From a virus, in the IMG/VR virus record IMGVR_UViG_3300020281_000145, positions 1-20,531 of that record: a stretch of DNA of 20,531 bases; one strand, given 5' to 3'. The position numbers and the translations under genes are program-made. Positions within the stretch are counted from its first letter, which is position 1. Each line of letters starts with the position of its first letter. The notes under the pieces are model-generated. The model was not told the origin of the DNA. It searched no databases and worked only from the letters and a program-made list of their open reading frames with translations. Shown piece by piece: positions 7,380 to 18,271 of this stretch.

Positions 7380-8369
7380 ATGAGAGTTGAGAATGAAAAA
7401 AAATTAGATTATTCTGATGTACTTATCAGGCCTAAAAGATCTACTCTTACATCTAGGTGTGACGTTGATATGACAAGAACATATACTTTTCTCCACAGCC
7501 AGAGAAACTGGACCGGTATACCAATTATGTCTGCAAACATGGATACTGTCGGAACACCAGAAATGTACAAAGTATTGTTTAAACATAAGATGATTACTAG
7601 TCCGGCCAGACACTATTTAAAAAATAGTATTAACACATTTAAAGGAAAAAATCTTTGTATGATGGGTGGATTGGAAGACATAGATACTTTAGCCGATAAT
7701 AACTCAAAATGGGATTTTATGGGTATTGACGTTGCAAATGGATATACTATATCAGTCATAGATGCAGTAAAATCTTTAAGAGAGAAGGTACCGAATGCTA
7801 CGATCGTCGTAGGAAATGTTGTAACCGCAGACATGACGCAGGAACTGATTTTAGCAGGTGCAGATATTATTAAGGTTGGTGTAGGACCAGGATCTGTATG
7901 CACTACAAGAATAAAAACAGGTGTTGGTTATCCACAACTCAGCGCTGTTATGGAATGTGCAGACGCGGCACATGGATTAAATGCTCATATTATTGCAGAT
8001 GGTGGATGTAATTCTTCTGGTGATATTGTAAAAGCATTTGCGGCAGGTGCAGACTTTGTAATGATTGGTGGAATGTTATCAGGACACGATGAGTGCGATG
8101 GAGAAATCATAGATGGAAAGATGAAATTTTACGGTATGGCTTCTGAATCCGCTATGTCTAGACACAATGTTCCTCATAGAGAATATAGAGGGGTAGAAGG
8201 TAAGACGGTAGAGGTAGAATACAGAGGTCCTGTAGATAAAACTATTGTCGACATACTGTCAGGAATACGATCAGCGTGTACATACATTGGTGCAGAAAAA
8301 CTTAAGTCTCTATCAAAGTGTGCTACGTTTATCAGAGTAAATGATACACATAATAGAGTATATGAATAA
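7380..8369 (+). CDS. guaC: GMP reductase
   Basis: A 329-residue TIM-barrel enzyme converting GMP to IMP with NADPH. It follows bacterial GuaC (about 347 residues) rather than IMP dehydrogenase: there is no CBS-domain insert. The signature [20 protein letters not shown] (167-186) has catalytic Cys174 and Thr176. [20 protein letters not shown] and [10 protein letters not shown] follow, then [12 protein letters not shown] and [15 protein letters not shown] near the C-terminus. All of these are GuaC hallmarks. It has its own promoter and no ribosome site, so the transcript is predicted to begin at or next to the AUG. In a phage with AT-rich DNA it may move host guanine nucleotides toward adenine; that is inference. 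Phage-encoded GuaC is unusual. Confidence 0.95.
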
Positions 8370-16463: not shown

Positions 16464-16973
16464 ATGAGATCAATTATATTATCAGTTTTTATTATCTTTT
16501 CATTAGTAACATCAGTTCGTGCTGAGTTCTATGATAGCAAACAATTATTATGTATTGCACAAAATATTTATTGGGAAGCTAGAAACCAACCATTTCGTGG
16601 TATGGTAGCAGTAGGACAAGTCACGATGAATAGAGTTAAGGATAAGAGATTTCCTGATACTCCATGTGAAGTTGTAGAACAAGGTCCTACTAAACCTTCT
16701 TGGAAGGATCCTTCAATAGAATATCCAGTTAGACATCGGTGTCAGTTCAGCTGGTACTGTGATGGTAAGTCAGATGAAATTCCAAAGATTGATGCAGACC
16801 TTTGGAATTATGTCTTAGCTATGTCTACTAAAATAGCATCTGGTTATTGGGCAGATATAACACATGGTGCTACACACTATCATGCTGACTACGTTACACC
16901 AGGCTGGGCTAAGAGCAAACACAAGACTGCAAAGATAGGAGATCACATATTTTATATTTGGAAAATTAGATAA
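16464..16973 (+). CDS. Exported cell-wall hydrolase, SleB (Hydrolase_2) type
   Basis: This 169-residue protein has a Sec signal peptide: a short basic head, hydrophobic core ILSVFIIFSLVTS, and likely cleavage after SVRA (residue 20). The mature part matches the SleB catalytic family of peptidoglycan lytic enzymes: LLCIAQNIYWEARNQPFRGM with the catalytic Glu in YWEAR, AVGQVTMNRV, CEVVEQG, CQFSWYCDG and, late, THGATHYHADYVTPGWA. Four or more Cys fit an oxidising periplasm. It probably acts as an endolysin or wall-remodelling enzyme that leaves the cell by the host Sec path without needing a holin. It is in one operon with the following small genes (TAATG overlap). Confidence 0.88.
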   Translation: MRSIILSVFIIFSLVTSVRAEFYDSKQLLCIAQNIYWEARNQPFRGMVAVGQVTMNRVKDKRFPDTPCEVVEQGPTKPSWKDPSIEYPVRHRCQFSWYCDGKSDEIPKIDADLWNYVLAMSTKIASGYWADITHGATHYHADYVTPGWAKSKHKTAKIGDHIFYIWKIR

Positions 16974-17186: not shown

Positions 17187-17519
17187 ATGTTAGTAAAACA
17201 AGACGTTGAAAGAATTAAGGATGATCAAAAAGTAGTCGATCTTCCTAAGATAGATTATAAATTCAGTGAAGATAAGAATATACACTTAATAAAAGATCAT
17301 ATTGATGATACATATAAAGCTCACTACTCAGAGAATAAATTTCAAGCTACTGAATTCATATTAGACAGTGGACACGGTACAGGATTCTGTATAGGAAATA
17401 TTCTTAAGTATGCTCAAAGATATGGTAAAAAGGGAAATCGAGAAGATCACAGAAATGATCTTATGAAAATAATTCATTACGCAATTATTCAATTGCACGT
17501 GCACGATAATTATAAATAA
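17187..17519 (+). CDS. DUF3310-like phage protein
   Basis: This 110-residue protein ends with a helical domain, FILDSGHGTGFCIGNILKYAQRYGKKGNREDHRNDLMKIIHYAI. The pattern GNxxKYxxRxGKKxxxExxxxDLxK is that of DUF3310, common in phages and sometimes called nucleotide kinase-like without proof. The N-terminal half is variable and charged. The start at 17187 is chosen over ATG 17172 because GAGG (17174-17177) lies 9 bases before it and it falls just after the previous stop. Its last codons contain a TATAAATA late box. Confidence 0.7.
   Translation: MLVKQDVERIKDDQKVVDLPKIDYKFSEDKNIHLIKDHIDDTYKAHYSENKFQATEFILDSGHGTGFCIGNILKYAQRYGKKGNREDHRNDLMKIIHYAIIQLHVHDNYK
17511..17518 (+). promoter_or_regulatory. 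T4-type late promoter box TATAAATA
   Basis: TATAAATA at 17511-17518 ends inside the stop codon of the DUF3310-like gene. Initiation near 17525 would leave a leader with AAGGAG (17537-17542) before the next gene at 17550. It is placed exactly between genes and in the sense direction, as is the one at 105. Confidence 0.6.
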
Positions 17520-17549
17520 TACTAATATTATGAAATAAGGAGAAAAATT

Positions 17550-17672
17550 ATGGATTTTACTACAGCTTGGAATGAGCTTACTTATATCGACGGCATACTA
17601 TTTACTGTATGGCTAGGAATTCTATATTATGGTAAATGTAGAATTGATCACCACTTCAAGTGGAAAGATTAA
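17550..17672 (+). CDS. 40-residue membrane protein
   Basis: A 40-residue frame with a strong AAGGAG 7 bases before its ATG. Residues 11-28 (LTYIDGILFTVWLGILYYG) form one membrane helix; the tail KCRIDHHFKWKD is charged. It directly follows a late promoter and precedes the structured RNA region. Small late membrane proteins include holins and inner-membrane exclusion proteins, but nothing here decides the role. Confidence 0.65.
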   Translation: MDFTTAWNELTYIDGILFTVWLGILYYGKCRIDHHFKWKD

Positions 17673-17673
17673 A

Positions 17674-17771
17674 GGTGGGGAACCAGCCTGGTCGTGCACG
17701 ACGTTTCGTAGCAGTTAGTTTAAGTCCATAGCTACCGAAATGGTTTCATTTCAAAGGAGAAGAAATGAACC
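17674..17771 (+). ncRNA. GC-rich structured leader with competing hairpins (candidate cis-regulatory RNA)
   Basis: This non-coding stretch between two small genes is markedly GC-rich at its 5' end. A perfect 12-base palindrome GTCGTGCACGAC is at 17691-17702. TTTCGTAGC (17704-17712) pairs with GCTA(C)CGAAA (17731-17740) around an 18-base loop. GAAATG (17737-17742) pairs with CATTTC (17747-17752). The same CATTTC with GGTT (17742-17752) can instead pair with GAAATGAACC (17762-17771), locking the start codon at 17765 in a stem with the Shine-Dalgarno in the 9-base loop. The three stems share strands, so they are mutually exclusive, as in a translational switch. No known riboswitch class is recognised. 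Confidence 0.45.
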
Positions 17772-17908
17772 TAGAAGAAAGAGTGTCAATGATTAAAATG
17801 AGAATAGATAAATTTAAAAAAGACTATTCACATATATTTAAACCGTCAGTTTACGAAAAACGAATTTGGAGTTACGAGGATAATTGTTTTTATGCGCCGA
17901 AAGAATAA
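17765..17908 (+). CDS. 47-residue charged protein under the RNA leader
   Basis: A 47-residue frame starting after AAAGGAG (17753-17759, 5 bases before the ATG). The sequence is helical and basic at first (MNLEERVSMIKMRIDKFKKD), then aromatic (IWSYEDNCFYAPKE). It overlaps the next gene by 17 bases. Its start codon can be sequestered by the upstream leader. Not recognised. Confidence 0.65.
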   Translation: MNLEERVSMIKMRIDKFKKDYSHIFKPSVYEKRIWSYEDNCFYAPKE

Positions 17909-18083
17909 CATAACGAGTCAGTACATAGATACTAGAATACTACAACTTAAAGAAGATCATGACAAGGCTAAAGATCCTCATGATCAAAAGTGGTACAATC
18001 GACTGATCCAAGAATTAGAATGGGCTAGGCAGGCTGTATCAGGTAAATTTGAAAAAGATTGCGCCTTGGAGATTTGGAAATGA
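17892..18083 (+). CDS. Small helical protein, 63 aa
   Basis: A 63-residue charged protein (MRRKNNITSQYIDTRILQLK..., HDQKWYNRLIQELEWARQAV). One long amphipathic helix is likely. GAGG lies 12 bases upstream, a little far, so coupling to the previous gene is likely. It ends in ATGA with the next gene. Not recognised. Confidence 0.6.
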   Translation: MRRKNNITSQYIDTRILQLKEDHDKAKDPHDQKWYNRLIQELEWARQAVSGKFEKDCALEIWK

Positions 18084-18271
18084 TTGCGATAGTTATGATG
18101 GCAGGTTTATTCACCTGGGAAAATATAGAATTCTTTAATACTTCTAGACAACAAATGAGTGAAGGATATAAATGGGAATATGTCGGAAAATCCAATACAG
18201 TCGGTGTTCCTGACTTACCTTTAATCAATCCTAGAACAGATGAGGAGACAATTTACTTTAAATTGAAATAA
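18080..18271 (+). CDS. Small protein with hydrophobic N-terminus, 63 aa
   Basis: The ATG at 18080 overlaps the previous stop as ATGA, with GGAG 8 bases upstream; a TTG at 18059 in the same frame is rejected for lack of a site. MIAIVMMAGLFTW is a short hydrophobic head, too short for a sure membrane span, followed by a polar tail. Not recognised. Confidence 0.6.
   Translation: MIAIVMMAGLFTWENIEFFNTSRQQMSEGYKWEYVGKSNTVGVPDLPLINPRTDEETIYFKLK

Follow-up and report, generated by a model that had tools for sequence, protein, structure and literature searches.

A conserved, predicted structured RNA over the translation start of a small open reading frame in a restricted phage lineage

The locus and its relatives

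The window, i.e. the whole stretch of viral DNA that was analysed (20,531 nucleotides), carries two small open reading frames (ORFs) on its + strand, one of 40 amino acids (17550–17672) and one of 47 amino acids (17765–17908). A conserved element at 17672–17778 (+ strand) comprises the intercistronic RNA and the opening codons of the second of these ORFs; it lies immediately 3' of the upstream gene's stop codon, with hairpins in tandem between the two cistrons. An earlier note on this DNA had described the region as GC-rich in an AT-rich genome, which was borne out: the GC content is 46.9% for the 98-nt stretch 17674–17771 versus 33.8% for the window, and 65.6% for positions 17672–17703.

The upstream ORF, a member of PHROG 9048, occurs widely among marine phages and cyanophages that lack the RNA; in these other phages different genes follow the 40-amino acid gene directly. 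The PHROG 9048 protein itself is conserved among cyanophages and in numerous marine phages, in varied gene neighbourhoods. The downstream ORF varies most at third codon positions and is for that reason probably coding, as judged from the sequence. Its relatives' proteins are 72–98% identical, and all six members give a weak match to PHROG 16775 (function unknown); the 47-amino acid protein has no Pfam match and belongs to no known family.

The window encodes a phage DnaB-like helicase (PHROG 19) and a UvsX-like recombinase with its best annotated match in Phage C48C1 (Kyanoviridae), and these two proteins indicate that it stems from a T4-like phage. The cyanophage-type relatives suggest a marine setting.

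DNA-pattern and protein searches located the element in the window and in nine other IMG/VR contigs, the nine representing a handful of distinct versions. The sequence of one of the IMG/VR relatives (L088, 28,041 bases) was also present in a contig of equal length from a genome collection (L197), binned in a metagenome-assembled genome labelled RS438. A search with the downstream protein returned nine contigs, all nine with the element. Searched against annotated phages, the element had no credible match at the DNA level. Sequence-only and structured models, applied to some 150 more distant phage loci and to 12 whole records, yielded no credible homologue; they returned weak matches only, which were not retained, and those that were examined lie inside long ORFs. 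Pattern matches outside the clade were likewise discarded as GC-rich coding sequence or chance. No tRNA or tmRNA was found at the element. Elsewhere in the window, ARAGORN reports a tRNA-Asn (gtt) at 1149–1237, which at 89 bases is long for that tRNA and may be a miscall or carry an unusual arm.

Conservation of the element

Conservation was assessed in an alignment of six sequences, and the keeping of base pairs was counted over 8 distinct aligned sequences. Positions 17672–17778 form the most conserved 107-nt stretch of the alignable neighbourhood, with 96 of the 107 columns invariant in the six sequences. Outside the loop of stem A (see below) only five columns vary, namely 17680, 17705, 17706, 17752 and 17761. 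The pairwise difference in the non-coding part of the element is 7.5–10%, mostly in one loop; it amounts to 22–33% at the third codon positions of the flanking genes, and the intergenic stretch 17520–17549 is about one third divergent. Codons 2–4 of the downstream ORF (AAC CTA GAA) are degenerate and invariant, while 58% of the comparable degenerate codons elsewhere, with the amino acid conserved, vary; with three codons only, this is a suggestive signal of selection. The degree of conservation greatly exceeds chance, and at the level of sequence comparison the element is shown to be under strong purifying selection that appears to extend into the first codons of the ORF. Second in conservation (0.88 invariant over 107 nt) is the stretch 18045–18151, which spans the end of the ORF at 17892–18083 and also covers the start of the overlapping ORF at 18059–18271.

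Predicted hairpins

The RNAalifold consensus of the eight aligned sequences consists of four hairpins: P1, P2, the core of stem A, and C. The two 5' hairpins, P1 and P2, were absent from the earlier note, which had proposed stems A, B and C at coordinates that all match the sequence. P1 (17673–17689, + strand) pairs AGGUGG (17673–17678) with CC-A-(G bulge)-CCU (17683–17689), giving 6 bp and one bulged G, and is closed by a GNRA tetraloop at 17679–17682. The tetraloop occurs as GGAA, GAAA and GUAA, and the predicted energy is −5.9 kcal/mol in each of the three loop versions. P1 is invariant except for position 17680 (G, A or U), the free N of the tetraloop, which is also the sole variable base in the first 33 bases of the element. 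P2 (17691–17702, + strand) is a perfect 12-base palindrome (GTCG-TGCA-CGAC), invariant in all relatives; its predicted formation varies with the length of RNA folded.

Stem A of the window pairs 17704–17712 with 17731–17740 (9 bp, C bulge). Its core (17707–17737, + strand), formed by CGUAGC (17707–17712) and GCUAC-C-G (17731–17737), comprises the inner six pairs and is kept in 8 of 8 sequences, but the outer pairs are broken at 17705 in 5 of 8 and at 17706 in 3 of 8. The loop of stem A (17713–17730) is variable on its 5' side and in its length, and has a conserved 3' side, AGUYCAUA. Stem B (17737–17752, + strand; GAAATG at 17737–17742 with CATTTC at 17747–17752) and hairpin C (17742–17771, + strand; 17742–17752 with 17762–17771, 10 bp and one bulged U) keep their pairs in all 8 sequences; the change of 17752 from C to U in L013 converts a G-C to a G-U pair in stem B as in stem C. 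The stem of C contains the AUG at 17765, and its 9-nt loop holds the Shine-Dalgarno sequence AAAGGAG (17753–17759, + strand), which is invariant in the relatives.

Variable columns are concentrated in unpaired positions (12 of 59 unpaired versus 1 of 50 paired columns; Fisher p = 0.003), a result that leans largely on the loop of stem A, and the single change in a paired column leaves a G-U pair in place. Two-sided (compensatory) changes are absent from all pairs in the 8 sequences, in which paired columns hardly ever vary; this follows from the near absence of any variation in the element. As judged from this alignment, covariation is thus silent and speaks neither for nor against the fold.

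Folding energies

The minimum free energy of 17674–17771 has a z-score of −1.1, with 27 of 200 shuffled sequences folding equally well, and that of a 131-nt stretch has a z-score of −1.5. The folding energy does not significantly exceed chance in either case, and energy-based support for the element was rejected on these grounds. Roughly 2% of the window's 30-mers fold as stably as hairpin C. When 33 start regions of the window were compared, the one at 17765, with the AUG predicted to be paired in the local fold, came out lowest in local energy at −8.7 kcal/mol, the next-lowest being −8.1 and −8.0 kcal/mol. On their own, hairpins C, A and B have predicted energies of −7.5, −7.1 and −3.3 kcal/mol, respectively, from which A plus C would be the default fold and B a minor one.

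A long-range pairing of P1 and P2 with the upstream ORF was also considered, as the fold of 17601–17707 reaches −35 kcal/mol. It was rejected because synonymous shuffles equal it in 3–45% of the cases and genes of phages that lack the element pair about equally well.

Alternative folds

In the earlier note stems A, B and C formed the logic of a translational switch, with A and B as well as B and C mutually exclusive and C able to lock the start codon. The exclusivity of B and C holds, and stem C pairs the start codon in each of the 8 distinct sequences. A and B are strictly exclusive only when stem A forms its outer pairs; with the core alone the two stems share only base 17737, and the three-way logic is weakened because these outer pairs are lost in relatives. 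The three-stem switch is only partly supported; a conserved, structured RNA does lie directly before the ORF. The AUG is paired in C, but the Shine-Dalgarno sequence lies in the open loop and is not hidden. Hairpin C would therefore be a clamp on the start codon and not a full lock.

At the length of the element, C is the main fold in 6 of 6 sequences, with a probability of 0.94–0.98 in five of the six and of 0.59 in L009, and B is minor in all but L009. The Shine-Dalgarno sequence is unpaired with a probability of 0.98–0.99 where C dominates. When more downstream sequence is folded, folds with stem B become competitive in L004, L009 and L010. In a further, hypothetical alternative, fold D, the 3' arm of stem A (CUACC) would pair with GGAG of the Shine-Dalgarno sequence, while the loop of stem A would take up the start codon through pairing of its AGUYCAU with AUGAACCU. 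For L004, L009 and L010, folding of longer stretches predicts a D-type structure as the minimum; at element length the probability of fold D is 0.30 in L009 and 0.001 or less in four of the six sequences, in which it lies 3.6–6.7 kcal/mol above A plus C. Most sequences have a C at 17726, which creates a mismatch with the start-codon arm, and fold D can compete only with a U at this position or where longer stretches are folded.

Comparison with known systems

The earlier note had recognised no known riboswitch class, in agreement with an Rfam search that gave no match above the gathering threshold in the window or the relatives and nothing relevant at E-values up to 10 for positions 17500–18000. 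T4-type hairpins over ribosome-binding sites with a late-promoter bypass are known for I-TevI, segB, Aeh1 mobE and genes e and soc; there the hairpin hides the Shine-Dalgarno sequence, and the late promoter is sited so that late transcripts begin inside the hairpin and are unable to form it (PMC2988022). The present element resembles these in that a hairpin of a phage mRNA pairs part of the translation start of the downstream gene, and differs in having the Shine-Dalgarno sequence in the loop and a conserved 5' domain of several hairpins. No late promoter (TATAAATA) occurs near hairpin C; the nearest one is at 17511–17518, more than 200 nt upstream, and the number of TATAAATA sites in the window equals the chance expectation. 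A late-promoter hairpin of the T4 type was rejected, as the Shine-Dalgarno sequence is unpaired and no promoter is in place.

The operators of T4 genes 43 and 32, to which the respective gene products bind, are a hairpin about 40 nt and a pseudoknot 67 nt upstream, respectively (PMC3014915). The element shares with them a compact fold upstream of the start, the binding region in the T4 cases reaching the ribosome-binding site; in contrast, the downstream protein here has 47 amino acids and belongs to no known family, and there is no match in sequence or family. The likeness to an autogenous operator is an analogy of layout.

Glutamine riboswitches of the glnA type occur in Melnitz-like methylophages and some pelagimyophages (PMC9004378). 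They too are structured regulatory RNAs of marine phages, but the element has no Rfam riboswitch match and differs from them in sequence and context. In Candidatus Pelagibacter ubique, candidate structured RNAs were derived from GC-rich intergenic regions, which in AT-rich marine genomes are an established source of structured RNAs; some of these candidates have near-invariant stems with variable loops, and some lack covariation because they hardly vary (PMC2704228). The element is likewise a GC-rich intergenic stretch of an AT-rich marine genome; unlike these candidates, it is carried by a phage and is matched by no Rfam model.

Proposed role and alternative explanations

On the strength of the sequence comparisons, we consider the element a real, conserved, structured and lineage-restricted RNA over a translation start. 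Its most probable role, to which we assign a probability of roughly 0.55, is that of a lineage-specific, cis-acting RNA that sets or regulates translation of the 47-amino acid ORF in marine T4-like phages; orientation, spacing and the Shine-Dalgarno sequence are compatible with control of the downstream ORF. Hairpin C would display the Shine-Dalgarno sequence in its loop and clamp the start codon in its stem, and initiation would require C to be opened, either by the ribosome or by refolding. With the Shine-Dalgarno sequence exposed, repression by C may be weak. The 5' part (GNRA hairpin P1, palindromic P2 and the core of stem A) would act as a binding or stabilising domain, the partner of which would more likely be a phage or host protein than a metabolite. 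A metabolite riboswitch is, from the sequence, one possibility among several, in which the conserved 5' hairpin domain upstream of the ribosome-binding site would be the putative aptamer.

Few structured regulatory RNAs from marine phages are known. The present element is more constrained than any other stretch of its neighbourhood, lies outside every Rfam family and covers the start of a small gene. If the proposed control of translation is true, it offers a way to study how T4-like marine phages regulate expression after transcription, and what the 47-amino acid protein does.

The element could instead be a free-standing or processed small RNA that acts in trans and ends by chance at or near the start of the next gene. 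Its 5' 60 nt are compact, GC-rich and conserved, as in a structured RNA, and it immediately follows the upstream stop codon; conservation, however, runs on into the start codon and the synonymous sites of the ORF, the same ORF is always next in line, and no terminator-like site is present nearby on the + strand, and we regard this explanation as unlikely. Slightly less probable again is an element for mRNA processing or stability, whose hairpins would stop a nuclease or place a cleavage between the cistrons and so give the downstream mRNA a stable 5' end, in keeping with tandem intercistronic hairpins just past a stop codon. Stability hairpins, on the other hand, seldom require a near-invariant sequence. 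The GGAG of the Shine-Dalgarno sequence in the loop is the core of T4 RegB sites, but the bases that follow it, in the window (GGAGAAGAAAT) as in L009 (GGAGACGAAAT), do not fit the consensus of strong RegB sites, GGAGRAYARAA (PMC3014915).

A function at the level of DNA, as a protein-binding palindrome, an origin or a recombination site, appears improbable. The invariant, perfect 12-bp palindrome GTCGTGCACGAC would fit such a site, but P1 is an imperfect palindrome that varies exactly at the N of its GNRA loop, the core arms of stem A are constant although its loop differs in both length and sequence, and conservation crosses the ribosome-binding site and the start. Equally doubtful is a new class of phage-borne translational switch, in which the GNRA-capped hairpin domain would sense a protein or a ligand, with stem A's loop and 3' arm either closing on themselves or capturing the Shine-Dalgarno sequence and the start codon. 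A bistable translational riboswitch that alternates between A plus C, with the Shine-Dalgarno sequence free, and fold D is the least probable of all. It would account for the AGUYCAU conserved inside an otherwise variable loop and draws on the D-type folds of L004, L009 and L010 described above, but is opposed by the mismatch at 17726 in most sequences and by the low probability and unfavourable energy of fold D in four of the six.

Other features of the window

The ORF at 7380–8369 resembles, by eye, a protein of the IMP dehydrogenase/GMP reductase type, with deaminase-like and thymidylate-synthase-like ORFs nearby. A 70-amino acid ORF at 16973–17185 matches the zf-CHCC zinc finger (Pfam PF10276), and this stretch is absent from at least one aligned relative.
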